From Clostridia bacterium (GTDB lineage: Bacteria; Bacillota; Clostridia; Christensenellales; Aristaeellaceae): DNA of 64,000 nucleotides. Below the pieces are notes generated by a model. That model was not told the origin of the DNA and did no database searches. It saw only the letters and a list, made by a program, of their open reading frames with translations. The stretch covers positions 1-64,000 of the forward strand of contig JAFXRG010000066.1 of assembly GCA_017526525.1 (NCBI GenBank), written 5' to 3'. Made by a program: the position numbers and the translations under genes. Shown piece after piece: positions 3,954-52,875 of the stretch (position 1 is the stretch's first letter; every line of letters begins with the position of its first letter).

Positions 3954-3993
3954 TGTATCAGCCCTTTTCAAGATGTATTGCACCGATGTATGA

Positions 3994-4022
3994 ATTATAG
4001 GTTTTCCCGTCCGGGGTGTCAA
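3994..4022 (-). promoter_or_regulatory. Perfect-consensus sigma-A promoter for the CxxC-rich protein
   Basis: Read on the minus strand: TTGACA (4022-4017), a 17-base spacer, then TATAAT (3999-3994). The ATG at 3953 lies about 40 bases downstream. Confidence 0.85.
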
Positions 4023-4032
4023 TCGATTGTCC

Positions 4033-4061
4033 TTGCGGCACAGCAGCGAAAATGTTATAAT
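4033..4061 (+). promoter_or_regulatory. Promoter for the tandem-thioredoxin dockerin gene
   Basis: TTGCGG (4033-4038), a 17-base spacer, TATAAT (4056-4061), with TGT just upstream making an extended -10. Its -35 box lies only 10 bases from the -35 box of the divergent promoter at 3994-4022. Confidence 0.65.
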
Positions 4062-4136
4062 TTTCCTGCAAAAAAGCAATCGCTTTCGCAGGATCCTCCG
4101 GGAAAAGTGCGAAAAAATGCTGAAGGGATGGGAAAA

Positions 4137-5363
4137 ATGAAAAAAAAGCTGACGGGGACTCTTTTAGCCGTTATGATGCTGCTTGCCATCTGGGCCGGGA
4201 CGGCAGCGATGGCCGGCGCGGCAGATCCGATTTCCTTCACGACCACTACCCTGACCGGTGAGACTTTTGACAGCAGCATCTTTCAGGATTATGACCTGGT
4301 GATGATCAATCTCTGGGCAGAGTGGTGCGGCCCCTGCATGGGGGAACTGCCGGACCTGGAGCAGATTCACCAGGAATATCCGAATGTGCTGCTGCTTGGC
4401 GCATACTGCGGCTCAGACAGTAACGCCGCGCTGCAGGCAGCTCAGCAGGAGGGTGTTACCTATCCCCTGATCCAGAAGCCCCGTGTAATAAATAATTATA
4501 TTGAAATTAATGGCAGCGGTTCTTACAGTATCCCCCAGACCTGCTTTTTCGACCGGAACGGCAATGCGCTGGGCAGCGCCTATGTCGGGAGCAGAAGTTA
4601 CAGCAACTGGAAGACTATTGTGGATGAGAAGCTTGCCGGGGACAGTGGAAGCGGGAATTCCGAACAGACGCTTTCCTTCACGACCACTACCCTGACCGAT
4701 GAGACTTTTGACAGCAGCAGTTTTCAGAATTACGACCTGGTGATGATCAATCTCTGGGCGGAGTGGTGCGGCCCCTGTATGAGGGAACTGCCGGACCTGG
4801 AGCAGATTCACCAGGAATATCCGAATGTGCTGCTGCTCGGCGGATACTGTGACAATGATGGTGATGCCGCATTGCAGGCGGCTCAGCAGAAGGGCGTTAC
4901 CTATCCCCTGATCTGGACACCATACGATATATACGCTTATATTGAAATTGAAAACGGTTCATTTGGTATCCCCCAGACCTGCTTTTTCGACCGGAACGGC
5001 AATTCGCTGGGCGGCGCCTATGTCGGGGGCAGAAATTACGACGACTGGAAGGCCATTGTGGATGAGAAGCTTGCCGAGGTCGGGAGCGAAAAACCGGTTC
5101 CTGTACCGGAACCTGGCGACAACCTTCCCGGAGACGTGAATGAGGACGGCGTTGTGGACGGCCGGGACGTGGTGCGGCTGATGAAGTACCTGGCGGGCGA
5201 GGAAGAAGACGAAGAAACCGGCGAACCGCTGGAAATCAACTATGACAGCGCTGACGTGGACGGCAGCGGAGCCATTGATGAGAAGGATCTGCTGCGCCTG
5301 ATCCGGTACCTGGGCGGGGAAAAAGTGGAACTGCTGCCCGGCGCCATGTCCGGGAACGGATAA
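4137..5363 (+). CDS. Secreted protein with two thioredoxin (TlpA/ResA-like) domains and a C-terminal dockerin
   Basis: 408 residues. I start at the ATG at 4137 because it follows AAGGG by about 10 bases and opens a clear signal peptide (MKKKLTGTL..., about 26 residues); the frame is open further upstream but overlaps the divergent promoters. Two thioredoxin-fold domains about 147 residues apart each keep the redox motif WCGPC (Cys64/Cys67 and Cys211/Cys214) inside a LINLWAEWCGPC-type strand typical of TlpA/ResA thiol-disulfide oxidoreductases. Residues of about 330-400 are a dockerin with the loops DVNEDGVVDGRD and DVDGSGAIDEKD. The likely role is extracytoplasmic thiol-disulfide exchange, attached through the dockerin; the partner cohesin is not in this window. 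Confidence 0.88.
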   Translation: MKKKLTGTLLAVMMLLAIWAGTAAMAGAADPISFTTTTLTGETFDSSIFQDYDLVMINLWAEWCGPCMGELPDLEQIHQEYPNVLLLGAYCGSDSNAALQAAQQEGVTYPLIQKPRVINNYIEINGSGSYSIPQTCFFDRNGNALGSAYVGSRSYSNWKTIVDEKLAGDSGSGNSEQTLSFTTTTLTDETFDSSSFQNYDLVMINLWAEWCGPCMRELPDLEQIHQEYPNVLLLGGYCDNDGDAALQAAQQKGVTYPLIWTPYDIYAYIEIENGSFGIPQTCFFDRNGNSLGGAYVGGRNYDDWKAIVDEKLAEVGSEKPVPVPEPGDNLPGDVNEDGVVDGRDVVRLMKYLAGEEEDEETGEPLEINYDSADVDGSGAIDEKDLLRLIRYLGGEKVELLPGAMSGNG

Positions 5364-5427
5364 GAAATACGGATTGAAAAACACAGCGGCCGGGCAGGAT
5401 ACGGACTGCAGGAACCCCGGAGGAAGA

Positions 5428-5477
5428 CCGGGTGGAGATCCTGAAAACGGACTCCGCCCGGCCTTTCGCCGAAAGGG
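5428..5477 (+). terminator. Possible weak terminator hairpins
   Basis: A 10-bp stem pairs 5428-5437 with 5452-5461 (one G-T pair). It is followed by a second small stem CCTTTC/GAAAGG (5462-5477). There is no long T run, so termination here is uncertain. Confidence 0.3.
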
Positions 5478-35763: not shown

Positions 35764-37344
35764 ATGATCCGCAGAAATCAGGCCTTTCTGAATAAACTGA
35801 ATATTCTGCTGGACATTGCGCTGACCGTGGCAGCCTATATCCTGGCTTCCTGGCTGCGGCTGGATTTCCTGGACGGACAGGAAACCAACATGGCCGCGGT
35901 AAGCGGGAGGACGGTGCTGCTGGCGCTTTCCTATTCGCTGGTGCTGTTCCTGCTGCTTTCGGTGATGGGTTTTTACAACACGACGCGCACCCATCGGCTG
36001 GATTGGAAGATCCGGAGGATTATCCTGGCGGTGACCATTTCCACCCTGATTGCAACGGCCCTGCTGTTTACCTTCCGGCTGATGGATTTCTCCCGGGGCG
36101 TGCTGATTGTTTTCTATCTGAGCACCGTTTCCCTGCTGGTTGCCAAATACGCGCTGACCCGGCTGATTTTCAACCACTACCGGAAAAAGGGATACAACCT
36201 GAAGCATGTGCTGGTGATCGGAACGGGAAGCCTGGCGGAGCAGTACCAGCGGGACATTGAGGAGGAGTCGGAGCTCGGGTTTTCCATTATGGGCTTCATC
36301 GGCAACAGCCAGCGGATGTCGGACGATTCCCGGCACCTGGGCAACTTTGATATGCTGGACTATGTCCTTTCCACCTCGGACCTGAGCGAGGCGGTGATTG
36401 CGCTGGACCCGGAGGATTACAGCAAGATCCGGGAGGTTATTTCCGTTTGCGAACGGAACGGCGTGAAATATTCCGTGATTCCTTTTTACAACGACATTAT
36501 TCCTTCCCATCCGGTTATTGAGACCATCGGCCGCAGCAAGCTGATCAACATGCGCTCCAACCGGCTGGACAACGTGGGATGGAACCTGATTAAACGCGGG
36601 TTTGACATGATTGCCAGCGCGCTGGCGCTGATTGTGCTGAGCCCGCTGATGCTGCTGATTGCCATCGGGGTGAAGCTTTCCTCTCCCGGGCCGGTGCTGT
36701 TCCGCCAGAAGCGGGTCGGGTTCAACCGGAAGGAGTTCCGGATGCTGAAATTCCGGTCCATGAAGACCAACGAGGAAGAGGAGACCGCCTGGACGAAGCA
36801 GACGGATCCCCGGCGGACCCGGTTCGGGGCGCTGCTGCGGAAATGCAGCCTGGACGAGCTGCCGCAGCTGTTCAACGTGCTGAAGGGGGACATGAGCCTG
36901 ATCGGCCCGCGGCCGGAGCTGCCGCACTTTGTGGAGCAGTTCAAGGAAACGGTGCCCTTTTACATGGTGAAGCACCAGGTGAAGCCCGGGATTACCGGAT
37001 GGGCCCAGGTGAACGGATACCGGGGAGACACCAGCATTGAGAAACGGATTGAGCTGGATCTTTGGTACATTGAAAACTGGAGCGTGGGACTGGATCTGCG
37101 GATTCTGCTGCGGACGGTGTTCGGCGGAATGATCAACAAGGAGGCAACGGGTGCGGTACACAGTAGTGATTCCGGTGCTGAACGGGGGAGAGGCGCTGCT
37201 GACCCTGACCGACACGCTGCTGGAACAGACGGTTCCGCCGGAAGAGATCGTGATCGTGGACTCCGCGTCGGAGGACGGCGCGGCGCAAAAGGCCGCCGGA
37301 AAGGAACGGGTGCGGCTGATCGGAATCGAGCGGAAAGCGTTTGA
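35764..37344 (+). CDS. Undecaprenyl-phosphate glucose/galactose phosphotransferase (WcaJ type), with unusual C-terminal overrun
   Basis: 526 codons. It starts glycan assembly by moving a phosphosugar onto undecaprenyl phosphate. The N-terminal half has four hydrophobic helices and a CoA-binding-like Rossmann region (HVLVIGTGSLAEQYQ). The C-terminal half is the catalytic bacterial sugar-transferase domain with SSPGPVLFRQKRVG, MLKFRSMKT, LDELPQLFNVLKGDMS and GPRPELP. Family homology ends near residue 460 (RTVFGGMINKE). The last 65 codons run in another frame across the start of the next gene and give an Arg/Gly/Ala-rich sequence with no family resemblance. The original stop has probably been lost or shifted. 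Confidence 0.88.
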   Translation: MIRRNQAFLNKLNILLDIALTVAAYILASWLRLDFLDGQETNMAAVSGRTVLLALSYSLVLFLLLSVMGFYNTTRTHRLDWKIRRIILAVTISTLIATALLFTFRLMDFSRGVLIVFYLSTVSLLVAKYALTRLIFNHYRKKGYNLKHVLVIGTGSLAEQYQRDIEEESELGFSIMGFIGNSQRMSDDSRHLGNFDMLDYVLSTSDLSEAVIALDPEDYSKIREVISVCERNGVKYSVIPFYNDIIPSHPVIETIGRSKLINMRSNRLDNVGWNLIKRGFDMIASALALIVLSPLMLLIAIGVKLSSPGPVLFRQKRVGFNRKEFRMLKFRSMKTNEEEETAWTKQTDPRRTRFGALLRKCSLDELPQLFNVLKGDMSLIGPRPELPHFVEQFKETVPFYMVKHQVKPGITGWAQVNGYRGDTSIEKRIELDLWYIENWSVGLDLRILLRTVFGGMINKEATGAVHSSDSGAERGRGAADPDRHAAGTDGSAGRDRDRGLRVGGRRGAKGRRKGTGAADRNRAESV

Positions 37345-40257: not shown

Positions 40258-41145
40258 ATGAAGGGCATTGTACTTGCGGGAGGATCGGGTACCCGGCTGT
40301 ATCCGCTGACCAAGGTGACATCCAAGCAGCTGCTGCCGATTTACGACAAGCCGATGATCTATTATCCGCTTTCCACCCTGATGCTGGCGGGTATCCGGGA
40401 GATCCTGATTATTTCCACTCCGGACGACACCCCGCGCTTTGAGCATCTGCTGGGGGACGGATCCCAGTTTGGGATTTCCCTGTCCTACAAGGTTCAGCCT
40501 TCGCCGGACGGACTGGCCCAGGCCTTCATTATCGGGGAGGAATTCCTGGCCGGGGGCCCGGGAGCCATGATCCTGGGAGACAACATTTTTTACGGCAACG
40601 GGTTCCGGACCTTGCTGAAGACAGCGGTCCGCAACGCCGAGGAAGCCGGCCGGGCCACGGTGTTCGGCTACTATGTGCCGGACCCGGAACGGTTCGGGGT
40701 GGTGGAGTTTGACGAAAAGGGCCGGGCCCTTTCCATTGAGGAAAAGCCGAAGGTGCCCAAAAGCAACTATGCCGTGACAGGACTGTATTTCTATCCCGCC
40801 GGCGTCAGCGGACGGGCGAATGAGGTGAAGCCTTCCGCCCGGGGCGAGCTGGAAATTACGACGCTGAACGATATGTACCTGGCAGACGGGCTGCTGGATG
40901 TTCAGCTGCTGGGCCGGGGATTTGCCTGGCTGGATACGGGAACCATGGATTCCCTGCTGGACGCGGCGAAGTTTGTGGAGATGGTTCAGAGCCGCCAGGG
41001 GATTACCATTTCCGCGCCGGAGGAAATTGCGTTCATCAACGGTTTCATCGGCCGGGAGAAGCTGCTGGAGTCCGCCGGGGTATACGGGAAGAGCCCTTAC
41101 GGCGAGCACCTGAAGGCTGTGGCGGAAGGAAAAGTCAGGTACTGA
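40258..41145 (+). CDS. rfbA: Glucose-1-phosphate thymidylyltransferase
   Basis: 295 residues. It makes dTDP-glucose from glucose-1-phosphate and dTTP, the first step to dTDP-L-rhamnose. The signature [20 protein letters not shown] is at residues 8-27, followed by [27 protein letters not shown] and [15 protein letters not shown]. Length and motifs match RmlA. It is the first gene of a four-gene rfb operon in the order A-B-D-C with its own near-consensus promoter. Confidence 0.97.
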
Positions 41146-41175
41146 GCGACCGGAGAAAAACAGGAGGACGGAACC

Positions 41176-42195
41176 ATGACGATTATCGTAACCGGCGGGG
41201 CCGGATTTATCGGCGGAAACTTTATCCACTATCACCTGAAGGCGCATCCGGAGGACCGGGTGGTGTGCGTGGACAAGCTGACCTACGCGGGGAACCTTTC
41301 CACCCTGGCGCCGGTGATGAACCATCCGAATTTCCGCTTCTGCAAGCTGGATATCTGCGACCGGGAAGGCGTGTTTGCCCTGTTTGAGGAGGAAAAGCCG
41401 GACGCGGTGATCAACTTCGCGGCGGAGAGCCATGTGGACCGTTCCATTGAGGATCCCGGCATTTTCCTGCAGACGAACATTATCGGCACGGCCACCATGA
41501 TGGACGCCAGCCGGAAGTTCGGCAACGTGCGGTATCACCAGGTTTCCACGGATGAGGTATACGGGGACCTGCCCCTGGACCGGCCGGACCTGTTCTTTAC
41601 GGAGACCACACCGATTCACACCTCTTCGCCCTATTCCTCCAGCAAGGCGGGGGCGGACCTGCTGGCCATGGCGTATTACCGGACCTACGGACTGCCGGTG
41701 ACCATCAGCCGGTGCAGCAACAACTACGGCCCCTATCATTTTCCGGAGAAGCTGATTCCCCTGATGATTGCCAACTGCCTGAACGACAAGCCGCTGCCGG
41801 TATACGGCGAGGGCAAAAACGTCCGGGACTGGCTGTATGTGGAAGACCACTGCAAGGCCATTGACCTGATTGTGCGCAAAGGCCGGATCGGCGAGGTGTA
41901 CAATGTGGGCGGCCACAACGAGATGGCCAACATCGACATTGTGAAGCTGATTATCAAAGAGCTGGGCAAGAGCGAGGACCTGATTACCTATGTGACGGAC
42001 CGGAAGGGACACGACCTGCGCTACGCCATCGACCCGACGAAGATTCACAGCGAGCTGGGCTGGCTGCCGGAAACGAAGTTTGCGGACGGCATCAAAAAGA
42101 CGATCCGGTGGTACCTGGAAAACCGGAGCTGGTGGGAAGAGATTATCAGCGGGGAATACCAGAACTACTACGAAAAGATGTATGCCAACCGATAA
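41176..42195 (+). CDS. rfbB: dTDP-glucose 4,6-dehydratase
   Basis: 339 residues with AGGAGG upstream of the ATG. It turns dTDP-glucose into dTDP-4-keto-6-deoxy-glucose. It has the Rossmann loop TGGAGFIGGNF, the RmlB catalytic region STDEVYGDL with the Asp-Glu pair, and YSSSKAGADLL with the catalytic Tyr and Lys. NNYGPYHFPEKLIPLMI and DWLYVEDHCKAIDLI are further family hallmarks. Confidence 0.97.
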   Translation: MTIIVTGGAGFIGGNFIHYHLKAHPEDRVVCVDKLTYAGNLSTLAPVMNHPNFRFCKLDICDREGVFALFEEEKPDAVINFAAESHVDRSIEDPGIFLQTNIIGTATMMDASRKFGNVRYHQVSTDEVYGDLPLDRPDLFFTETTPIHTSSPYSSSKAGADLLAMAYYRTYGLPVTISRCSNNYGPYHFPEKLIPLMIANCLNDKPLPVYGEGKNVRDWLYVEDHCKAIDLIVRKGRIGEVYNVGGHNEMANIDIVKLIIKELGKSEDLITYVTDRKGHDLRYAIDPTKIHSELGWLPETKFADGIKKTIRWYLENRSWWEEIISGEYQNYYEKMYANR

Positions 42196-42249
42196 GGAAA
42201 AGGATCAGCGAGGGACGGCCGGGAAACCGGCGGCCGGCGAGGGGTATCT

Positions 42250-43176
42250 ATGAAAGTATTTGTGACAGGCGTTTGCGGACAGCTGGGGCATGACTGCATG
42301 AACGAGCTGCTGGAACGGGGATACGAAGCGGTGGGGTCGGACATCCAGCCTTCCTACACCGGGGTGATGGACGGCACGAAGGTGGTGTTTGCCCCCTATG
42401 TGCAGCTGGATATCACGGACCGGGCCGCCGTGGAGGAGACCCTTGGCGGAATCCGGCCGGACGTGGTTATCCACTGCGCCGCCTGGACGGCGGTGGACGC
42501 GGCGGAAGAGGAGGAGAACCGGGAAAAGGTTCACGCCATCAACGCCCTGGGAACCCGCTATATCGCGGAAGCCGCGAAAGCCGCGGACGCGAAGATGATT
42601 TATATTTCCACGGACTACGTTTTTGACGGCAAGGGAGAGCGGCCCTGGGAACCGGATGACAAATGCTACGCGCCGCTGAATGTTTACGGACAGAGCAAGC
42701 TGGACGGGGAGCTGGCGGTGTCCTCCCTGCTGGAAAAATTCTTTATTGTCCGGATTGCCTGGGTGTTCGGGCTGAACGGAAAGAACTTCATCCGCACCAT
42801 GATCAACATCGGGAAGACCCACGATACGGTCCGGGTGGTGAACGATCAGATCGGCACCCCCACCTACACGCTGGACCTGGCCCGGCTGCTGGCGGATATG
42901 GCGGAGACGGACAAGTACGGGTACTACCACGCCACCAACAGCGAATCGGAGCCCGGCGGATATATCAGCTGGTACGATTTCTGCCGGGAGTTTTACCGGC
43001 AGTACGGGCTGGCCACCGAGGTGATTCCGGTGAGCACCGCGGAATACGGGCTCAGCAGGGCCGCCCGGCCGGAGAACAGCCGGCTGGATAAGAGCAAGCT
43101 GGCAAAGGCCGGCTTCCGGCCGCTTCCGCCCTGGCAGGACGCGGTGGAAAGATATTTGCGGGAGGCAAAACTGTAA
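42250..43176 (+). CDS. rfbD: dTDP-4-dehydrorhamnose reductase
   Basis: 308 residues. It carries out the last step, NADPH-dependent reduction to dTDP-L-rhamnose. Features are FVTGVCGQLGHD, HCAAWTAVDAAEEEE, STDYVFDGKG and VYGQSKLDGE (Tyr-x-x-x-Lys), and AWVFG with NFIRTM. The phrase ATNSE...SWYDFCREFYR matches the C-terminal domain. It lies one base before the rfbC start. Placing D before C is a less common gene order but both genes are intact. Confidence 0.96.
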   Translation: MKVFVTGVCGQLGHDCMNELLERGYEAVGSDIQPSYTGVMDGTKVVFAPYVQLDITDRAAVEETLGGIRPDVVIHCAAWTAVDAAEEEENREKVHAINALGTRYIAEAAKAADAKMIYISTDYVFDGKGERPWEPDDKCYAPLNVYGQSKLDGELAVSSLLEKFFIVRIAWVFGLNGKNFIRTMINIGKTHDTVRVVNDQIGTPTYTLDLARLLADMAETDKYGYYHATNSESEPGGYISWYDFCREFYRQYGLATEVIPVSTAEYGLSRAARPENSRLDKSKLAKAGFRPLPPWQDAVERYLREAKL

Positions 43177-43177
43177 G

Positions 43178-43783
43178 ATGGGACAAATCACGGTTCAGAA
43201 GGATCTTGACGGAATCCGGGGCCTGTGCCTGATCCAGCCCGCCGTGCACGGGGACAGCCGCGGATATTTTATGGAAACCTGGTCGGCGAGGGACATGAAG
43301 GAAGCCGGACTGGACATTGCCTTTGTGCAGGACAACCAGAGCCGCTCGGTGAAGGGCGTGCTGCGGGGACTGCATTTTCAGAAACAGTTTCCCCAGACCA
43401 AGCTGGTGCGGGTGATCCGGGGCGAGGTTTTTGACGTGGTGGTGGACCTGCGGTCCGATTCAGAAACCTTCGGAAAATGGCACGGGGAACTGCTGACCGA
43501 GGAGAACCGGCATCAGTTTCTGATTCCCCGGGGATTTGCCCACGGATTCCTGGTGCTGAGCGACGCGGCGGAATTCTGCTACAAGTGCGACGATTTCTAC
43601 CATCCCGATGACGAGGGCGGCATGGCCTGGAATGATCCGGAGATCGGCATCGCCTGGCCGAAACTGGAGGGAACGTATACGGGAAGTGCTTCCGGAGCGG
43701 GATACCGGGTGGACGGAGTTCCGCTGAAGCTGAGCGAAAAGGACCAGCGGTGGCTGGGAATCCGGGACACTTTCCGGTTCTGA
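43178..43783 (+). CDS. rfbC: dTDP-4-dehydrorhamnose 3,5-epimerase
   Basis: 201 residues, a cupin-fold epimerase that inverts C3 and C5 before the RfbD reduction. It has the family run GDSRGYFMETW near the N-terminus, FVQDNQSRSVKGVLRGLHFQ with the catalytic His, VFDVVVDLRSDSETFGKW, and IPRGFAHGFLVLSD. The catalytic Tyr region YKCDDFYHPDDEGG is present. A hairpin shared with the converging gene follows the stop. Confidence 0.96.
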   Translation: MGQITVQKDLDGIRGLCLIQPAVHGDSRGYFMETWSARDMKEAGLDIAFVQDNQSRSVKGVLRGLHFQKQFPQTKLVRVIRGEVFDVVVDLRSDSETFGKWHGELLTEENRHQFLIPRGFAHGFLVLSDAAEFCYKCDDFYHPDDEGGMAWNDPEIGIAWPKLEGTYTGSASGAGYRVDGVPLKLSEKDQRWLGIRDTFRF

Positions 43784-43844: not shown

Positions 43845-45779
43845 TTATTTTTTTGCCTTTTTTGTGTCCCGGCTGACGGCCACGGTCAGGCCGGCAAAAA
43901 GGAACAGCAGCGTCATCGGCGGATAGGCATAGGTGACGTGACAGGGAATATCCGCCAGGTCCGCGATGAGGCAGACCAGGGCCGGAAGCGGCAGGAGCCG
44001 CTGCCAGAAGGGCAGGCTCCGGTTCAGCAGCAGCCGGACGGCGTGGAAAACAAAGGCGGCACAGAAGGCGAAAAGCAGCAGGAAGCCGGGAAGCCCGTTT
44101 TCCAGGAAGGTCTGCAGCAGGGTGCAGTGGCAGTGGTGGACCGGATACAGCACCGGAATGCGGAGCTCGTTGACCGGGGGAATGGGATTATGCACCGACT
44201 GGCCCAGCAGCAGGTTGCCGGGGCTGGCGAAAATGACCTGCAGGACGTTTTTCCAGACCGTGAGCCGGCCGGCCAGGGTGATATCCGGATCGGCTGCCAG
44301 CTCAAATCCCCGATGGGCAATCTCCTCCGCGCCTTCCGCCGCCGCCCGGGAAAGCAGCAGCGCGCCGCGGGAACGGATCATCTGGAAGGCATCCAGCGTA
44401 TAGGACTGCAGGAAGGCCACGGCCACGGCCGAGGCGGCAAAGAGAACCGCGATCAGCCCCCATTTGCCGGCGGTGAGGGCCAGGCTTCCGGGCCGGCCGG
44501 GCTTCAGCCGGTCGTAGGCCGCCAGGGCGATCAGCAGGGCAAAGGTGATCCCGGAAATCAGGTAGGCGGTGCGCGTGCCGGTGAGGGAGCCGGTGACGAA
44601 CAGTACCAGCACGGCCAGCACGTAAACGGCCTTCAGGAGCTTCAGGCGGGTCAGCGCGAAGCCAAGGCAGCAGACCGCCGCGGAGGCGCACAGGATAATG
44701 CCGGAGATGACCGGATAATAAATCAGCTGGAGCCGGGCATCGGTGGTGGTGGTGAAAAACTCGCTGTTCAGGTTCTGGACGGGAACGCCGGTGACGGCGG
44801 CGGACAGGCCGGTGACGGCGTAAACCAGGGCCGCGGCGGTCCAGACCAGGCAGAAAAGGGACAGGAAGGTTTTTCGGTCCTTCGGGGAGAGAACCCGGCC
44901 CACCGCATAGCAGCCGAAGAAGGCATAAGCGGACATGACAAAAACCGGGGACTCGCTTTCCAGCACCGCCTGCCCGAGAACGGAGGTGCGGATGATTTTC
45001 AGGGCCAGCAGGAGCAGGAGCACCCAGAAAAGACGGTCCTTCCAGAGGCGGCCCAGCAGGATGCTGACCCCGGCGAAGACCAGCAGCGGGACCGTGAGCC
45101 CCGAGGCGCCGGTGAAGACATTTTTATAGTTCAGGGTAACATAGACATGATGCAGCAGCATGGCCGCCGCAAAAAGCATATAGACCCAGGTGATTTCCTT
45201 CCGGCGGGTGGAGGGATCCGCCACCCACCGGTCCGCCGCCTTCAGGAAGCGGTTCAGGGGCCGGATCCGGGCAAAGAGGAAGGCCAGCAGGGTGAGCAGG
45301 GCAGCGGGCAGCAGGGTGGTGAGGGGATGAAAGGCATAACCGGTAAAAACCCGGCTGGCCGGATGGGGACTGAAGGAAATTTCAGCCACCGGCGCGTTTG
45401 GATTGACATAGAGGCTGAGCTGGGAATAGCGGGCCATGCCCAGGGGGAAGACGATTTCCCGGGTGCCTGCGGAGCAGTTCTGTTCCGAGGTTTCATAGCG
45501 GCCGTCCTCCCGATACCAGTAAAGCTCGGCATAGGTTTCCTTTTCCAGGGGCTTTTCAAAACGCACCACCACGCTGCCGAAGGCGCCCAGCGCCAGGGGA
45601 TCCCGGATGGGACCGCCGGGCAGGGTCTGCACCGGTTCGGGCTGGACATAATGGACGGAGGAAGGGGAGGCGAGCCAATGGACCACGTCCGCTGCGGTAA
45701 AGACCAGCAACAGGCAGACGAAAAGCAGCAGGATCTTTTTCAGGCTGAAAGCCGGATGCCCGGTTTCCGTGGATGTCAT
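43845..45779 (-). CDS. O-antigen ligase/polymerase-like (Wzy_C) membrane protein
   Basis: 644 residues from the ATG at 45779, chosen because AAGGAAGGAG lies nine bases upstream. One N-terminal membrane segment (about 15-38) is followed by an extracytoplasmic beta-rich region (about 40-150) and then about eleven to twelve hydrophobic segments. TGSLTGTRTAYLISGITFAL and the long loop with LAGRLTVWKNVLQVIFASP before NPIPPVNELRIP..HHCHCTLLQTFLENG fit the Wzy_C/ligase superfamily, whose loop carries catalytic Arg and His residues. It is the only polymerase/ligase candidate in the window and is transcribed on its own from a minus-strand promoter. Polymerase and ligase roles cannot be told apart from sequence. 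Confidence 0.78.
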   Translation of the reverse strand: MTSTETGHPAFSLKKILLLFVCLLLVFTAADVVHWLASPSSVHYVQPEPVQTLPGGPIRDPLALGAFGSVVVRFEKPLEKETYAELYWYREDGRYETSEQNCSAGTREIVFPLGMARYSQLSLYVNPNAPVAEISFSPHPASRVFTGYAFHPLTTLLPAALLTLLAFLFARIRPLNRFLKAADRWVADPSTRRKEITWVYMLFAAAMLLHHVYVTLNYKNVFTGASGLTVPLLVFAGVSILLGRLWKDRLFWVLLLLLALKIIRTSVLGQAVLESESPVFVMSAYAFFGCYAVGRVLSPKDRKTFLSLFCLVWTAAALVYAVTGLSAAVTGVPVQNLNSEFFTTTTDARLQLIYYPVISGIILCASAAVCCLGFALTRLKLLKAVYVLAVLVLFVTGSLTGTRTAYLISGITFALLIALAAYDRLKPGRPGSLALTAGKWGLIAVLFAASAVAVAFLQSYTLDAFQMIRSRGALLLSRAAAEGAEEIAHRGFELAADPDITLAGRLTVWKNVLQVIFASPGNLLLGQSVHNPIPPVNELRIPVLYPVHHCHCTLLQTFLENGLPGFLLLFAFCAAFVFHAVRLLLNRSLPFWQRLLPLPALVCLIADLADIPCHVTYAYPPMTLLFLFAGLTVAVSRDTKKAKK

Positions 45780-45819
45780 AGGGCTGCGCTCCTTCCTTAC
45801 GGCATGATACCGACAGATG

Positions 45820-45848
45820 ATTTTACCATGAGCGGCAGGGAAAGACAA
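45820..45848 (-). promoter_or_regulatory. Promoter of the polymerase/ligase-like gene
   Basis: On the minus strand: TTGTCT (45848-45843), a 17-base spacer, TAAAAT (45825-45820) with TGG just upstream (extended -10). About 40 bases before the ATG at 45779. Confidence 0.7.
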
Positions 45849-45995: not shown

Positions 45996-48185
45996 ATGAA
46001 CAGGATCAAGGGCCGGGACTGGCTGATTGTCTTGCTGGATATCCTGTCTGTAAACATATCCTATCTGCTTGCGCTTGTTTTCCGTTTTTATATGGATCAC
46101 CGGATGCACCTGACCGTGCAGGAGTATCCCACCTGGGTGCTGGAATTCGCGCCGGTCTATACCCTGGTATGCCTGCTGGTTTTCTGGCGGTTCCGGCTTT
46201 ACAGCGGCATGTGGAAATACGCCGGCATTAATGATATGAACCGGATTATCGGCGCAAGCGTGGTGACGGCGGTTTTCATGGTGGGCGCCACGATCCTGGT
46301 GTTTCCCCGGCGCATGCCGAACTCCTACTACCTGGTAGGCGCCATTATGCAGTTTGTTTTTGTAACGGCAACCCGGTTCGGATACAAGCTTTGGGAACTG
46401 GAAATGCGGAAGTTCCGGAACTGGCGGAAGACGGGGGAACACGCCCTGGTGATCGGCGCCGGCGAGGCGGCGCAGCGGGTGACGCGGAGCCTGGAGAGCA
46501 GCGAGGGCGTCCGCCCGGTCTGCATTCTTGACATCAAGGGGAAAAACATCGGGCGGATGATGGACGGACTGCCGGTTTACGGCGGGATGGACATGCTGGA
46601 GCACGCAACGGACCGGCATTCCGTGCGGCGGATTTATATTGCGGATCCGCTGCTGCAGTCCGAAATGAAAAACCGGATTGAGAAATTCTGCCGGGAGAGG
46701 CAGATTGAGCTGCAGGACCTGGGCTATTCCATCTACCTGAGCGGAAACGAGGAACTGGGGGAGACCCGGGAGGTGGTTTCCGAGGAGGCCGATCACCAGC
46801 GGGTGATTCCTTTCAGCCCGCCGGATATTTCCGAAAAGGAAATTGCCGAAGTGGTGGAGGCGATGCGTTCCGGCTGGATTACCACCGGACCCCGGACGAA
46901 GCGCCTGGAGCGCCGGCTGGCGGCCTTTTTCCTGACCGGACGGACGGATGTGGATATTGACACGGACAAGGAACGCTGGAAACGGAAGGTGATCTGCCTG
47001 AGCTCCGCCACCGCGGCGGAGGAACTGAACCTGCGGGTGCTGGGAATCCGGGAAGGGGACGAGGTGATCGTTTCCGCCTACACCTATACGGCCTCCGCTT
47101 CCGCGGCGGTGCACTGCGGCGCAAAGGTGAAGTTTGTGGATATCCGGAAGGACGGGGACGTCGGCAGCGGTATGCCGGAGATGGATTACGACGCGCTGGA
47201 AAGCGCGATTACGGAGAAAACCCGGGCGATTATTGTGACCGACCTGGCAGGCATTGTGGCGGACTACGACCGGGTGTTCGAGATTGTCGAACGGAAACGG
47301 AGCCTGTTTACCCCGCGGCCTTCCGACGGGACGACGCTGGGAGACCTGTCCGCGAAAATCCAGCAGGGAATCGGCTGCGTGGCAGTGGTGGCGGACAGCG
47401 CCCATTCCCTGGGGGCCAGCCGCACGGTTTCCCATGCCGGGGACGGAGACGTGAACCCGCCTGAAAAACGGTACTGCGGCCGGATTGCACATTTTACCTC
47501 CTTCTCCTTTCACGCGGTGAAGAACTTTACCACGGCGGAAGGCGGCGCCAGCACCTGGTGCCTGCCCCGGGCCGTGTACGACCTGGGCGTGACCGATTAC
47601 GATATTTTCCGGATGTTCCAGCTGCTTTCCCTGCACGGGCAGAACAAGGATGCCCTGGCCAAGGCCAGGAGCGGCGCCGGCGCGTGGGAGTACGACGTGA
47701 TCGGGCCCTGGTACAAATGCAACATGACGGATATCATGGCGGCCATCGGGCTGCGGCAGCTGGACCGGTACCAGGGACTGCTGGCCAGGCGGGCGGAAAT
47801 GATTCGGCGTTACGACAGCGTGTGCGACGAACTGGGCCTGAAGCACCTTACGCATCACCTGCCCGGAATGGATTCCTCCAACCACCTGTATCTGGTTCGG
47901 ATTCCGGAGGCGGACGAACAGATGCGGAACCGGGTGATTTCGGAAATGGCCCGGGCCGGGGTCAGCACCAACGTGCACTACAAACCGCTGCCCATGATGA
48001 CGGCGTACCGGGAGCTGGGATGGGAGATCGGGGACTTCCCGAACGCCTACGACTACTACCGGAACGTTTTCACCCTTCCGCTGCACACCCTGCTGTCGGA
48101 CGATGACGTACAGCGGGTCTGCGATACGCTGCGGAAGGTGATCGGCGAGGTCCGCAAACCGGCTGAGGAATCAAAAGCATGCTGA
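45996..48185 (+). CDS. Fusion of CapD/PglF-type membrane half with DegT-family aminotransferase
   Basis: 729 residues, ATG nine bases after GGGGGA. Residues 1-130 hold four hydrophobic helices. Residues of about 148-265 are a Rossmann-like CoA-binding domain (ALVIGAGEAAQRV, 150-162). This is the N-terminal architecture of CapD/PglF/WbpM sugar-nucleotide dehydratases. The catalytic SDR domain of those enzymes is missing. Instead residues of about 268-725 are a DegT/DnrJ/EryC1/StrS PLP aminotransferase: SGWITTGPRTKRLE, LSSATAAEELNLRVLG, DSAHSLGA (467-474), the probable PLP lysine Lys509 in FSFHAVKNFTTAEGG, and VHYKPLPMM. It probably aminates a UDP-4-keto-6-deoxy sugar at the membrane; the matching dehydratase is not in the window. 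Confidence 0.87.
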   Translation: MNRIKGRDWLIVLLDILSVNISYLLALVFRFYMDHRMHLTVQEYPTWVLEFAPVYTLVCLLVFWRFRLYSGMWKYAGINDMNRIIGASVVTAVFMVGATILVFPRRMPNSYYLVGAIMQFVFVTATRFGYKLWELEMRKFRNWRKTGEHALVIGAGEAAQRVTRSLESSEGVRPVCILDIKGKNIGRMMDGLPVYGGMDMLEHATDRHSVRRIYIADPLLQSEMKNRIEKFCRERQIELQDLGYSIYLSGNEELGETREVVSEEADHQRVIPFSPPDISEKEIAEVVEAMRSGWITTGPRTKRLERRLAAFFLTGRTDVDIDTDKERWKRKVICLSSATAAEELNLRVLGIREGDEVIVSAYTYTASASAAVHCGAKVKFVDIRKDGDVGSGMPEMDYDALESAITEKTRAIIVTDLAGIVADYDRVFEIVERKRSLFTPRPSDGTTLGDLSAKIQQGIGCVAVVADSAHSLGASRTVSHAGDGDVNPPEKRYCGRIAHFTSFSFHAVKNFTTAEGGASTWCLPRAVYDLGVTDYDIFRMFQLLSLHGQNKDALAKARSGAGAWEYDVIGPWYKCNMTDIMAAIGLRQLDRYQGLLARRAEMIRRYDSVCDELGLKHLTHHLPGMDSSNHLYLVRIPEADEQMRNRVISEMARAGVSTNVHYKPLPMMTAYRELGWEIGDFPNAYDYYRNVFTLPLHTLLSDDDVQRVCDTLRKVIGEVRKPAEESKAC

Positions 48186-48889
48186 AGAAATGGGAAGAAC
48201 TGCCCGAATTCATGCGCTGCGCCGAGGTGCGTCCCTACTGGGAGGCGCTGCGGAAAAAACGCGGACAGCTGCGGATGAAACGGGCGGGGGACATTTGCCT
48301 GGCGCTTCTGCTGCTGGCGGTGCTGCTGCCGGTGGGGGCGGTGATTGCCCTGCTGATCCGGATGGACAGCCCGGGACCGGTTTTTTTCCGGCAGGAGCGG
48401 GTGACCGCTTTCGGCCGACGGTTCAGGATTCACAAGTTCCGTACCATGACGCCCGGCGCGGCGAAGGAAGGCACGGCGGTGACGGCCGGGGAGGATCCCC
48501 GGATTACCCGGATCGGCCGGAAACTGCGGAATACCCGGCTGGATGAGATTCCGCAGGTGCTGGACGTGCTGGCGGGCAGCATGAGCTTCGTGGGGACGCG
48601 GCCGGAAGCGGTGAAATATACGGAGGCGTACCGGCCGGAATGGAACGCGACGCTGCTGCTGCCGGCGGGGATTACCTCCGAATGCAGCCTCCGGTACCGG
48701 GATGAGGCGCGGCTGCTGGAAACGGCGGCCCGGTCCGGCCCCGGGGAAATTGACCGGGTGTATACGGAAGAAATCCTGCCGGAGAAAATGAAGCTGAACC
48801 TGGAGAGCCTGCGGACCTTCTCGGTGGGAAAGGAACTCCGGACACTGCTGCGGACAGCCGGATCCGTATTTGGAAAGGAAACCGAATGA
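48179..48889 (+). CDS. Initiating phosphosugar transferase (PglC/WbaP C-terminal type)
   Basis: 236 residues, overlapping the upstream gene by seven bases. It is a short bacterial sugar-transferase with one N-terminal hydrophobic segment (about 40-60). The catalytic domain has MDSPGPVFFRQERVTAFG, IHKFRTMT, RLDEIPQVLDVLAGSMSFVG and TRPE. PglC-type enzymes move a UDP-diacetamido or N-acetyl sugar-phosphate onto undecaprenyl phosphate. Being directly downstream of the aminotransferase fusion suggests the first sugar is an amino sugar. A second initiating enzyme, the WcaJ-like one, is at 35764. Confidence 0.92.
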   Translation: MLKKWEELPEFMRCAEVRPYWEALRKKRGQLRMKRAGDICLALLLLAVLLPVGAVIALLIRMDSPGPVFFRQERVTAFGRRFRIHKFRTMTPGAAKEGTAVTAGEDPRITRIGRKLRNTRLDEIPQVLDVLAGSMSFVGTRPEAVKYTEAYRPEWNATLLLPAGITSECSLRYRDEARLLETAARSGPGEIDRVYTEEILPEKMKLNLESLRTFSVGKELRTLLRTAGSVFGKETE

Positions 48890-50130
48890 ACATTCTGTAT
48901 CTGGAGCACTACGCGGGTTCCCGGGAGATGGGGATGGAATTCCGTCCCTACTATCTCTCCAGGGAATGGGTGAGAATGGGACACCGGGTGACCATTGTGG
49001 CCGGAGACTATTCCCACCTGCGCAAAAGCAACCCTGAGGTCCGGCAGGATTTTCAGACGGAAGAGATTGACGGCATCGAGTACGTGTGGCTGAAAACCGG
49101 AAGGTACAGCGGGAACGGTGCAAAGCGGGCCCTGACCATGGAAAGGTTCGTACGGAAGCTGATGACCCGCGCGGGATGGATTGCCCGGAAATGGAAACCG
49201 GACCTGGTGATCGCTTCCTCCACCTATCCGCTGGACACCTGGCCGGCGGCACGCATTGCCCGGAAAGCCGGCGCGAAATACGTGCACGAGGTGCACGACC
49301 TCTGGCCCAGCACGCTGTATGAAGTGGGCGGCATGTCCCGGAAGCATCCTTTTGTGGTGCTGATGCAGATCGGCGAAAATTCCGCCTACCGGCACTGCGA
49401 CGCCTGCGTTTCCCTGATGCCCTACACGCTGGAATACATGAAGGAGCACGGGCTGCGGGAGGATAAATGGATTAACATCCAGAACGGCGTGGTGGAGGAG
49501 GAATGGACCGGATACGAATCCATTCCGCAGCAGCACCGGGATTTCTTTGAGGAACACCGGGGGCAGTTCATCGTCGGGTATTTCGGCGCCCACTCCCTGT
49601 CCAACGCCCTGGATCTGAGCCTGGACACGGCGAAGGAAATGATGAACCGGCCGGAAGGGAAGGACATCATTTTCGTCTTCGTGGGGGAAGGCGTTGAAAA
49701 GGAACGGCTGGTTCGCCGGGCAAAGGACGAGGAGATTTCCAACGCGTTTTTCCTGCCCCGGGTGAACAAGGCGGCAGTTCCGGACCTGCTGCGGTCCTTT
49801 GACTGCGTTTATATGAACGGGATGCCGTCCCCGCTGTACCGGTTCGGCCTGTGCCTGAACAAGATGTACGATACCATGATGGCCGGGGTGCCGGTGCTTT
49901 GCGTTTTTGACGCGCCGGATACCCTGGTGAGGCAGTACGACTGCGGATTCCAGTGCAGCCCGGAAAACCGGGAGGACGTGATTTCCGCGATCCTGAAGCT
50001 GAAGGCCATGACGCCGGAGGAACGGCACGCCATGGGAGAACGGGGCCGGGAGGCCGTGGTGCGGGAATACACCTACCGGCGGCTGGCGGAGCGCTTTCTG
50101 AAAGAAACGATGGGGGATACTGCAGGATGA
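48886..50130 (+). CDS. GT4-family glycosyltransferase (WbuB-like)
   Basis: 414 residues, ATG overlapping the previous stop by four bases. The N-terminus (MNILYLEHYAGSREMGMEF) and DYSHLR motif look like WbuB-type enzymes that add an N-acetyl amino sugar as second residue. The donor domain includes GYFGAHSLSNALDLSLD, IIFVFVGEGVEKERL and KMYDTMMAGVPVLCV. It follows the initiating transferase, consistent with adding the second sugar. The amino-sugar donor is an inference. Confidence 0.85.
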   Translation: MNILYLEHYAGSREMGMEFRPYYLSREWVRMGHRVTIVAGDYSHLRKSNPEVRQDFQTEEIDGIEYVWLKTGRYSGNGAKRALTMERFVRKLMTRAGWIARKWKPDLVIASSTYPLDTWPAARIARKAGAKYVHEVHDLWPSTLYEVGGMSRKHPFVVLMQIGENSAYRHCDACVSLMPYTLEYMKEHGLREDKWINIQNGVVEEEWTGYESIPQQHRDFFEEHRGQFIVGYFGAHSLSNALDLSLDTAKEMMNRPEGKDIIFVFVGEGVEKERLVRRAKDEEISNAFFLPRVNKAAVPDLLRSFDCVYMNGMPSPLYRFGLCLNKMYDTMMAGVPVLCVFDAPDTLVRQYDCGFQCSPENREDVISAILKLKAMTPEERHAMGERGREAVVREYTYRRLAERFLKETMGDTAG

Positions 50131-51200
50131 GATATGCATTGATCGGATGCGGACGGATTTCACCGAACCATATCGGGGCCGCAAAGCAAAACGGACTGGA
50201 GATCGCCGCCCTGTGCGATCTTGTGCCGGAGGCGGCGAAAGCCCTGGCGGAACAGTTTTCCCTGGAAGGGGTGCCGGTATACACGGATTACCGGGAGATG
50301 ATTTCCGCACAGAAACCGGAGCTGGTTGCCATTGCCACGGAGTCCGGGAAGCACGCGGCGATTGCGCTGGACTGCATTGCCCGGGGCTGCAATGTGATTA
50401 TTGAAAAGCCCATTGCCCTTTCCATGGCGGACGCGGACGCGATTATCGAAGCGGCAGGGAAATACGGGGTAACGGTGTGCGCCAACCATCAGAACCGGTT
50501 TAACCGGTCCGTTCAGCTGATCCGGGAAGCCCTGGAAGCCGGACGCTTCGGGAAACTGAGCCACGGGGCGGCCCACGTGCGGTGGAACCGGGGAAAGGGA
50601 TACTACGACCAGGCGCCCTGGCGGGGCACCTGGGAGCAGGACGGCGGATGCCTGATGAACCAGTGCATTCACAACATCGACCTGCTGCGCTGGATGATGG
50701 GGGACGAGGTGGAGGAAGTGACGGCGTATACCGACCGGCTGCTGCACCCCTACCTGGAGGCGGAGGACCTGGGAATGGCCATGGTGAAATTCCGCAACGG
50801 CAGCTACGGCCTGATTGAGGGAACCACCAACGTTTACGGGAAAAACCTGGAGGAAACCCTGTACCTTTTCGGGGAGAAGGGGATGGCCAAAGCCGCCGGA
50901 GCCAGCGTCAACACGATTGAGGAATGGCGGTTTGCCGATGGCCTGGACGATCCGGAAGAGGTGAAGAAACGCTTCAGCGAGAATCCCCCGAACGTTTACG
51001 GGTTCGGCCACGCGCCGCTGTACGCGGACGTGGTGGACGCCATACGGACCGGACGGAAGCCCCTGGTGGACGCGGAGGCGGGAAAACGCGCGCTGGAGCT
51101 GGTGCTGGCCATCTATCTGAGCGCGAAGGAGCACCGGGCGGTAAAGCTGCCGCTTGGGAACGTTGCAACGACGGATTTTTCCGGGAGGTTTGACGGGTGA
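50127..51200 (+). CDS. Gfo/Idh/MocA oxidoreductase, probable UDP-GlcNAc-uronate 3-dehydrogenase (WbpB/WlbA-like)
   Basis: 357 residues, ATG overlapping the upstream stop by four bases. The N-terminal Rossmann loop ALIGCGRISPNHIGAAK binds NAD. The catalytic EKP motif (IIEKPIALS) and the C-terminal DGGCLMNQCIHNIDLLRWM with the His of the family are present. Next come a WbpD-like acetyltransferase and a WbpE-like aminotransferase. In Pseudomonas and Bordetella these three make UDP-2,3-diacetamido-2,3-dideoxy-glucuronic acid from UDP-GlcNAc-uronate. Substrate here is inferred from that trio; the WbpA-type dehydrogenase is not in the window. Confidence 0.83.
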   Translation: MRYALIGCGRISPNHIGAAKQNGLEIAALCDLVPEAAKALAEQFSLEGVPVYTDYREMISAQKPELVAIATESGKHAAIALDCIARGCNVIIEKPIALSMADADAIIEAAGKYGVTVCANHQNRFNRSVQLIREALEAGRFGKLSHGAAHVRWNRGKGYYDQAPWRGTWEQDGGCLMNQCIHNIDLLRWMMGDEVEEVTAYTDRLLHPYLEAEDLGMAMVKFRNGSYGLIEGTTNVYGKNLEETLYLFGEKGMAKAAGASVNTIEEWRFADGLDDPEEVKKRFSENPPNVYGFGHAPLYADVVDAIRTGRKPLVDAEAGKRALELVLAIYLSAKEHRAVKLPLGNVATTDFSGRFDG

Positions 51201-51778
51201 GCGTATTTGTACATCCCACCAGCGTTGTGGACGAAGACGTGGAAATCGGCGACGGAACAAAGATCTGGCTGTTCTGCCACATTCAGCGGGGAGCCCGGAT
51301 CGGGAAAAACTGCTCCTTCGGCCAGAACGTGAACGTGGCGAACAACGTGGTGATCGGCAACGGCGTGAAGGTGCAGAACAACGTTTCGGTCTACGAGGGA
51401 GTGGAGCTGAAGGACTATGTGTTCTGCGGGCCTTCCTGCGTTTTTACCAACGACCTGACGCCCCGGGCAAAATATCCGAAGGGTTCCGCGGGATACCGGA
51501 AAACCCTGGTGGAGGAAGGCGCTTCCATCGGGGCCAACGCAACGGTGATCTGCGGCATCCGGATCGGGAAATGGGCGCTGATCGGCGCTGGCGCGGTGGT
51601 GACCGCGGACGTGCCGGACCACGCGCTGATTACCGGCATTCCTGCCCGGCACCGGGGATGGGTCTGCGAATGCGGAAAGGTGCTGGACAAAACGCTGGAA
51701 TGCGCCTGCGGAAGAAAATACACGGAAACGGATACAGGACTCAGGGAGGTCGACGGGGGATGCAGTTCAGGGATCTGA
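51197..51778 (+). CDS. wbpD: UDP-2-acetamido-3-amino-uronate N-acetyltransferase (WbpD/WlbB type)
   Basis: 193 residues, GTG start overlapping the upstream stop by four bases. Left-handed beta-helix repeats start at VHPTSVVDEDVEIGDGTKIW and include SFGQNVNVANNVVIGNGVKV. The diagnostic FCGPSCVFTNDLTPRAKYP and GASIGANATVICG segments closely follow WbpD/WlbB. The tail has two Cys-x-Cys pairs (CECGKVL, CACGRKY), possibly zinc-binding, which are common in this branch. It acetylates the 3-amino group made by the next gene. The two genes overlap by 19 bases. Confidence 0.88.
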   Translation: MSVFVHPTSVVDEDVEIGDGTKIWLFCHIQRGARIGKNCSFGQNVNVANNVVIGNGVKVQNNVSVYEGVELKDYVFCGPSCVFTNDLTPRAKYPKGSAGYRKTLVEEGASIGANATVICGIRIGKWALIGAGAVVTADVPDHALITGIPARHRGWVCECGKVLDKTLECACGRKYTETDTGLREVDGGCSSGI

Positions 51779-52875
51779 AGGCGCAGTACGCTGCGCTGAA
51801 GCCGGAGATTGACGCCGGAATCCGGGAAGTGATTGAAAGCTCCGCTTTTATCCTGGGGAAACCGGTGACGGAGCTGGAGGAGCGGCTGGCGGCCTTTACG
51901 GGACGGAAGCACTGCATCAGCTGCGGCAACGGAACCGACGCGCTGCAGCTGGCGCTGATGGCCTGGGAAACCGGCCCGGGGGACGCGGTGTTCACCTCGG
52001 ACTTTACCTATTTCGCCTCGGCGGGATGCGCGGCGGTGCTGAAGGCGGTGCCGGTGCTGACGGACATTGACCCCCAAACCTTCAACATGGATCCGGACAG
52101 CCTGGAATGGCAGATTCAGCGTGTTCTCAAAGAGGGCAGGCTGAAGCCGAAAGCGGTGATTCCGGTGGACCTTTTCGGGCAGCCGGCGGATTATGACCGG
52201 ATTCTGCCTATTGCGGAAAAATACGGATTGAAGGTGCTGGAAGACGGCGCCCAGGGCTTCGGGGGCGCCATTCGGGGCCGGAGGGCCTGCTCCTTCGGCG
52301 ACATGAGCATTACCTCCTTTTTCCCGGCCAAACCCCTGGGATGCTACGGGGACGGCGGCGCGATTTTTACGGACAGCGACGAGGAGGACGCGCGGCTGCG
52401 GAGCCTGCGGGCCCAGGGAAAGAGCCCGACGGACAAATATGACAACCGGGAGATCGGCATCAACAGCCGGCTGGATACGCTGCAGGCGGCGGTGCTGCTG
52501 GTGAAGCTGCGGGCCTTTGAAGCGTATGAGCTGGAGAAGGTAAACCAGGCGGCCGCCCGCTACACGGAGCGGCTGGCGGACCGGGTGCAGACCCCGACGG
52601 TGCTGCCCGGATTCCTGTCCAGCTGGGCCCAGTATACCGTGGTATTTCCGGACCGGGAGGCCCGGGACGATGCCCGGGAGCGGCTGAAGGCGGCAGGGAT
52701 TCCCTCCATGGTTTACTATCCCCGGGGACTGCACCAGCAGGAGGCGTTCCGGAGCATGCAGCTTCCGGATGAATGGTATCCGAATACCGTGGCAATGACG
52801 GGCCGGGTGCTGAGCCTTCCGATGCATCCCTACCTGACGGAGGAGGACGCGGACCGGGTTTGCAGCCTGCTGTAA
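51760..52875 (+). CDS. wbpE: UDP-sugar 3-aminotransferase, DegT family (WbpE/WlbC type)
   Basis: 371 residues from the ATG at 51760, with AGGGAGG upstream. It is a PLP aminotransferase of the DegT/DnrJ/EryC1/StrS fold: FILGKPVTELEERLA, CISCGNGTDALQLALMAW, EDGAQGFGG, and the PLP lysine in SITSFFPAKPLGCYGDGGA. INSRLDTLQAAVLLVKL is the usual cofactor/substrate loop. These lines match WbpE, which uses glutamate to aminate the 3-keto uronate made by the dehydrogenase two genes upstream. Confidence 0.9.
   Translation: MQFRDLKAQYAALKPEIDAGIREVIESSAFILGKPVTELEERLAAFTGRKHCISCGNGTDALQLALMAWETGPGDAVFTSDFTYFASAGCAAVLKAVPVLTDIDPQTFNMDPDSLEWQIQRVLKEGRLKPKAVIPVDLFGQPADYDRILPIAEKYGLKVLEDGAQGFGGAIRGRRACSFGDMSITSFFPAKPLGCYGDGGAIFTDSDEEDARLRSLRAQGKSPTDKYDNREIGINSRLDTLQAAVLLVKLRAFEAYELEKVNQAAARYTERLADRVQTPTVLPGFLSSWAQYTVVFPDREARDDARERLKAAGIPSMVYYPRGLHQQEAFRSMQLPDEWYPNTVAMTGRVLSLPMHPYLTEEDADRVCSLL

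Follow-up and report, generated by a model that had tools for sequence, protein, structure and literature searches.

A membrane module joined to an Spr1654-type aminotransferase in a Clostridia bacterium, with related fused and stand-alone forms

Results

A membrane module and an aminotransferase share one open reading frame

The window analysed here, the whole 64,000-nt stretch of contig JAFXRG010000066.1 (assembly GCA_017526525.1), contains a gene in which a predicted membrane module precedes a sugar aminotransferase, followed by genes for a small phosphoglycosyl transferase (PGT) and a glycosyltransferase (Table 1). The initial annotation had described a hydrophobic region and a Rossmann-like domain joined to a complete DegT aminotransferase, and Pfam and an alignment with PDB 6ewj agree on this layout within the frame, PF13727 matching residues 128-228 with 27.2 bits (cut-off 25) and PF01041 matching with 235 bits (cut-off 19.8). 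Hydropathy over a 19-residue window gave three strong segments at 10-28, 46-64 and 84-102 (2.35, 1.70 and 2.39) and a weaker fourth, which scored 1.16 at 111-129 in this protein alone and 1.54 at 108-126 when averaged over 25 fused sequences. That the protein lacks a dehydratase domain, as had been proposed, is borne out by Pfam, which found no PF02719 in it and gave two true CapD proteins 384 and 390 bits. Pfam likewise found no PF02397 catalytic domain in the fused chain; it lies in the next gene instead, which agrees with the earlier reading of that gene as an overlapping initiating transferase. The junction leads into FSPPD in all 25 aligned fused sequences, one of which (L076) is shortened by the end of its contig.

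Table 1. Features of the fused gene, its downstream neighbours and the stand-alone module
Feature	Position	Strand	Basis or remark
Fused gene, membrane module + aminotransferase, 729 aa	45996..48185	+	single uninterrupted open frame
Four hydrophobic segments, residues 10-28, 46-66, 84-102, 108-129 (fourth weak)	46023..46382	+	hydropathy
Rossmann-like PF13727 domain, about residues 128-240, motif VIGAGEAA	46377..46715	+	Pfam; WbaP profile match
Linker, about residues 241-270, variable, leads into FSPPD	46716..46805	+	junction of 25 sequences
DegT/DnrJ/EryC1 aminotransferase domain (271-719), Spr1654 type	46806..48152	+	PDB alignment, Pfam
D467 (Asp170 of Spr1654, PLP activation)	47394..47396	+	alignment; PMC5936713 (accessible part); invariant 25/25
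PLP lysine K509 (Lys199 of Spr1654)	47520..47522	+	alignment; PMC5936713 (accessible part); invariant 25/25
Small PGT, PF02397 165.5 bits, 236 aa, 7-nt overlap with fused gene	48179..48889	+	Pfam
GT4-type glycosyltransferase, next in run	48886..50130	+	same order in G012 (L194)
Stand-alone module	L034:5109-6140	-	also loci L176-L193

Elsewhere in the window, positions 50127-52875 encode a Gfo/Idh oxidoreductase (257 bits to 3q2k), a hexapeptide acetyltransferase and another aminotransferase of the DegT family (320 bits to WbpE 3nu7); we take them to resemble a WbpB/D/E set, which leads to a 2,3-diacetamido uronic acid. The window also encodes, at 35764-37344, a large PGT that is complete (PF13727 75 bits, PF02397 246 bits) and thus holds two priming transferases about 11 kb apart. 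A gene for an O-antigen ligase/polymerase-like protein (Wzy_C; 43845-45848, minus strand) separates the fused gene, which lies on the opposite strand, from the rml genes, an arrangement also seen in the genome of the nearest fused relative (G012, locus L024).

The aminotransferase domain resembles Spr1654

The C-terminal part of the protein, residues 271-719, matches positions 12-408 of the 427-aa chain of Spr1654 from Streptococcus pneumoniae (PDB 6ewj) with 415 bits. The same domain scored 78 and 76 bits against the dTDP-sugar transaminase chains 6blg and 4piw, and 39 bits against each of 1o61 and 4ztc, which we take to be PglE. The aminotransferase had been labelled as PglE type, a label that does not fit a domain closest by far to Spr1654.

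The accessible part of PMC5936713 names Lys199 of Spr1654 as the PLP lysine and lists residues for cofactor, donor and substrate, including those mapped here. Transferred through the 6ewj alignment, with a constant offset of 6 between the numbering of that paper and of the chain, Lys199, Asp170, His196, Glu205, Tyr84 and Gln234 fall on K509, D467, H506, E515, Y364 and Q549, placing the catalytic lysine where the initial annotation had expected it, near residue 509, while Lys236, Lys241, Tyr249 and Lys257 fall on K551, K556, Y566 and K574. These ten positions are invariant in the 25 fused sequences. Asn342 and His344 correspond to N659 and H661, conserved in at least 90 % of the fused set, and Tyr345 to Y662, conserved in fewer than 90 %, a position that PMC5936713, in the part available, says may be Tyr or Phe. 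Because the mapped residues are mostly conserved, the catalytic half looks active and of UDP-AATGal type, and catalysis by the fused protein is well supported by its sequence.

The membrane module resembles that of WbaP and groups apart from CapD

When 15 modules were combined in a profile (11 of the fused or stand-alone kind, two N-halves of CapD and two more stand-alone ones), it matched the solved WbaP chains 30us, 30wc and 8t53 over both helices and domain at E-values of 2e-4 to 9e-4. PF13727 itself scores low, matching 13 of the 25 fused members at E 1e-3; the NCBIfam model TIGR03025, which describes large PGTs, matches all 25 and covers residues 13-239 of the window's protein. The fused protein can thus be assigned a four-helix region and a PF13727 domain of WbaP type, with weak scores and a weak fourth segment. 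Positions D15, Y23, R30, Y69, W73 and P108 of the module are invariant among the 25 fused sequences, as is the first glycine (G154) of the glycine motif considered below.

The membrane half had been described as that of a CapD/PglF protein, and a tree of 70 N-halves argues against this by descent. The tree contains 22 of 29 CapD segments, six others having no N-half match and one being too short, and has two very long branches, the outgroup and the CapD of locus L064. The N-halves of 24 fused proteins, the window's included, form a single clade with 22 stand-alone modules (support 100/100) apart from the CapD N-halves, and on this tree a CapD origin of the window's membrane half is rejected. 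Since the stand-alone modules are 33-46 % and the CapD N-halves 29-40 % identical to the window's N-half, ranges that overlap, this kinship is settled by the tree and not by identity.

One fused protein (L069:7917-10055) represents a second kind of fusion, in which a CapD-type N-half is joined to the same aminotransferase and the junction falls within the CapD linker. Its N-half nests among CapD N-halves next to that of L096 (100/96), and an AU test rejects a grouping of the 25 fused proteins as one clade by their N-halves (p-AU 9e-10). Such tests gave weaker results for the remaining 24 fused N-halves (p 0.019) and for the stand-alone modules (p 0.017), each set taken as one clade, and to these we attach no weight. 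On the side of the aminotransferase a quick tree scatters the fused rows, but one clade of all 25 is not rejected and scores better than that tree (p-AU 0.67). Separate fusion events are not demonstrated by a tree so compatible with a single fused clade: L069 may stem from a second fusion of a module, or from the one original fusion with its module later swapped for a CapD-type half. By either route, judging from the trees, modules of the same fold reached the fused aminotransferase from two sources, because the half of L069 is of CapD type and the others group with stand-alone modules.

The module also occurs as a separate protein

Stand-alone modules, in open frames of 327-395 aa, were identified at 18 loci in 17 of the 37 genomes of the genus; within this set none was found in the window's own genome. 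A further partial copy lies on contig 7 of G036, outside the 18 loci, and L188 (G026; 3161-5460, minus strand) carries stand-alone modules in tandem, the upstream copy without the conserved tail. That tail comprises about 80 residues and ends in TG-[ER]-[DE]-[VI]-S-[FY]-F in the seven tailed rows of the module alignment; family models run over the tail alone gave no match.

A gene for a LegC-family aminotransferase lies downstream on the same strand in 16 of the 18 loci, 15 by an automatic 300-nt rule and one (L192) from overlapping frames. In L185 the contig ends 69 nt past the module, and in L193 no LegC-family aminotransferase gene adjoins it. The partner matches TIGR04181 with 273 bits, below the cut-off of that model (420). 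In six of the 18 loci the stand-alone module has a full CapD directly upstream, and 13 include a small PGT within the fetched stretch. Because the stand-alone form adjoins a different aminotransferase from the fused one, this gene neighbourhood argues for a joint function of module and sugar aminotransferase.

Distribution of the fusion

We searched 60 relatives besides the window's own genome, 36 of them of the same genus. Full-length fused orthologues, with 59-72 % identity and no internal stops, were found in four of these 36; a 743-aa frame in G031 taken up as a further candidate proved to be CapD. A named genome collection scanned with the orthologue alignment yielded 471 relatives, and among the best 80 loci, which were analysed, a script scored 24 as fused and 56 as unfused, a share that is no frequency, the loci being the best-scoring 80 of 471. 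Four of the 24 (L050, L051, L056 and L063) are seemingly the same records as G012, G009, G020 and G023. The number of fused loci is probably 25, because one locus scored as unfused (L080) is cut at a contig end and keeps an apparent module end (43 residues, E 8e-4). By their titles the fused loci belong to several clostridial groups.

In evenly drawn samples the fusion is rare. A class sample of 391 genomes contained 41 with the enzyme among the 390 besides the window's own, and among the matches listed for these 41 none reached into the module. In a phylum sample of 398 genomes, nine of them positive for the enzyme and the sample overlapping with that of the class, no clear fused case was found; one match (G595) starts at residue 215 but runs across stop codons. 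Tethering appears dispensable, since most related aminotransferases are unfused.

Gene neighbourhood

Of the 24 fused loci, 10 have CapD at most 200 nt upstream and one (L068) has it directly downstream; counted anywhere in the fetched stretch, it occurs in 12, including L072. Of the 56 loci scored as unfused, three have CapD directly upstream and 10 have it anywhere in that stretch. This contrast gives Fisher p-values of 2e-4 (within 200 nt upstream) and 0.006 (anywhere in the locus), for loci that are related, have flanks of unequal length and include L080 on the unfused side; like the partnership of the stand-alone modules it describes gene neighbourhood, not contact. A PGT follows within 200 nt in 10 of the 24 fused loci and lies directly downstream in 37 of the 56 scored as unfused.

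The fused aminotransferase should need the product of a CapD/PglF-type dehydratase, yet no such dehydratase was found in the window's genome (G000, 64 % complete) or in that of its nearest fused relative (G012, 88 %). The best PF02719 scores there were 54.6 and 53.9 bits, against the 384 and 390 bits of true CapD, and a CapD query retrieved only the fused gene's own N-half in both. Missing contigs may explain this absence.

Discussion

A proposed tethered aminotransferase and the alternatives to it

The fusion, the conserved catalytic residues, the gene order and the descent of the module are established at the level of sequence. On this basis we consider it likely that the protein is a tethered UDP-AATGal aminotransferase acting beside CapD and a small PGT, with a module that is perhaps also regulated by uridine nucleotides. 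A CapD/PglF-type dehydratase would supply UDP-2-acetamido-2,6-dideoxy-4-keto-glucose, the fused PLP enzyme would convert this 4-keto sugar to UDP-AATGal, and the small PGT encoded by the overlapping gene would load the sugar onto undecaprenyl phosphate and so prime a surface polysaccharide. The hydrophobic and PF13727 module would anchor, and probably dimerise, the aminotransferase at the membrane, WbaP being a dimer with most contacts within its PF13727 domain according to the accessible part of PMC10942596. Such anchoring would put dehydratase, aminotransferase and transferase side by side, and the PF13727 domain may let uridine nucleotides regulate amination, as that of WbaP may. What we infer here is the identity of the sugar, the location at the membrane, dimerisation, channelling and regulation; channelling draws indirect support from CapD and the small PGT lying within 200 nt of the fused gene, upstream and downstream respectively, in 10 of the 24 loci each. 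Counting against this reading are the failure to find a CapD-type dehydratase in the genomes of the window and of G012, the low PF13727 scores, the less conserved Y662 and the many related aminotransferases without the module. A pathway of matching steps is given in the available text of PMC13063421, in which a PglF-type dehydratase, WcfR and WcfS yield Und-PP-AATGal in E. coli.

The module might instead be mainly a sensor, with PF13727 binding UMP/UDP or UDP-sugars and adjusting the aminotransferase, and membrane location secondary; we regard this as somewhat unlikely. Feedback would then come from UMP, the by-product of the PGT. In the part of PMC10942596 available, UMP, UDP and UTP stabilise the WbaP domain on its own, UMP inhibits WbaP, and the authors suggest that large PGTs and PglF-like dehydratases are subject to feedback, but the same source allows that the UMP curve may also reflect the active site. 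The glycine motif is similarly divided: G154 is invariant in all 25 fused sequences, whereas the second glycine, G156, reaches 90 % conservation in the module set of 15 rows but not in the fused set.

It is rather improbable that the two genes represent a split large PGT, with the aminotransferase carried along as a passenger and the module acting in trans for the small PGT encoded downstream, much as the N-part of WbaP acts in cis. The match of the large-PGT model TIGR03025 to every fused member would suit such a split, as would the shortness of the PGTs in fused and stand-alone loci. However, PGTs of unfused loci seem to work without the module, because the 37 of 56 with a PGT directly downstream stand against no stand-alone module in any of the 56 fetched stretches, and where the stand-alone module does occur it adjoins the aminotransferase, ahead of the PGT.

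Use of another sugar by the aminotransferase, for example dTDP-4-keto-6-deoxyglucose from the RmlB-like protein encoded just upstream, would be in keeping with the Pfam domains of RmlA, RmlB, RmlD and RmlC in the genes at 40258-43783 and with the failure to find a UDP-GlcNAc dehydratase of CapD type in the window's genome. The predominance of Spr1654 over the dTDP-sugar transaminases 6blg and 4piw and the mostly conserved substrate residues make this reading unlikely. We hold it to be equally unlikely that the fusion is a neutral accident with no special function: the evenly drawn samples, with no clear fused case in the matches listed for the 41 enzyme-positive genomes of the class or in the nine of the phylum, would fit such an accident, but the 24, probably 25, fused loci among the best 80 of 471, their spread by title over several clostridial groups, the invariant module positions and the two sources of modules speak against it. 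A mis-join or frameshift, conceivable in an incomplete draft (64 %, 66 contigs), is ruled out for practical purposes because full-length orthologues occur in other genomes of the genus and fused loci among the best 80 of 471, the junction being identical in 25 sequences that include Ruminococcaceae bacterium AB4001 (L061), a record without a MAG label.

Relation to known systems

The tethered aminotransferase proposed here is most like Spr1654 in its catalytic domain, but the Spr1654 chain consists of that domain alone and the fused protein adds about 265 residues of membrane module. As a partner of a priming PGT it resembles WcfR of B. fragilis, the partner of WcfS in the accessible part of PMC13063421, the sequence compared here being that of Spr1654. 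With WbaP-type large PGTs (PF13727 + PF02397) it has the hydrophobic region and PF13727 in common, but it ends in an aminotransferase, and the PGT is a separate small protein. The CapD/PglF/WbpM proteins (PF13727 + PF02719) carry an N-terminal module of the same kind, and CapD accompanies half of the fused loci; the fused protein differs in having no dehydratase domain and a module of separate lineage, the CapD-type half occurring in L069 only. The stand-alone module clusters with the window's N-half and adjoins an aminotransferase gene, and differs in being a separate protein with its own tail and a LegC-like partner. Catalytic domain and module are thus each known. The fused layout, the free-standing form and the two module sources were not found described in the titles and abstract openings listed by the literature searches, in which most subscription journals fall outside coverage; within that scope the initial remark that no described enzyme of this layout was known still stands.

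Tentatively, the module may be a portable membrane adaptor that serves the priming pathway as a whole, either fused to dehydratase, aminotransferase or PGT or separate with a C-terminal tail that docks a LegC-type aminotransferase; in this way successive enzymes acting on UDP-sugars would come together in a single membrane complex responsive to uridine nucleotides. PglF-like dehydratases share the N-terminal module of large PGTs such as WbaP, a sharing that the authors of the WbaP structure find puzzling in the available text of PMC10942596. The fused protein, a gut-bacterial enzyme that probably makes an amino sugar for surface polysaccharides, adds a third enzyme of the pathway to those bearing this module, standing between the PglF-like dehydratases that act before it and the large PGTs that act after it. 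Because the module came to this third enzyme from two sources and, in free-standing form, has comparable neighbours, its role, whether to tether, to dimerise or to sense nucleotides, can now be separated from that of each single catalytic domain. Proteins that occur naturally in fused, unfused and free-standing form make that role directly testable.
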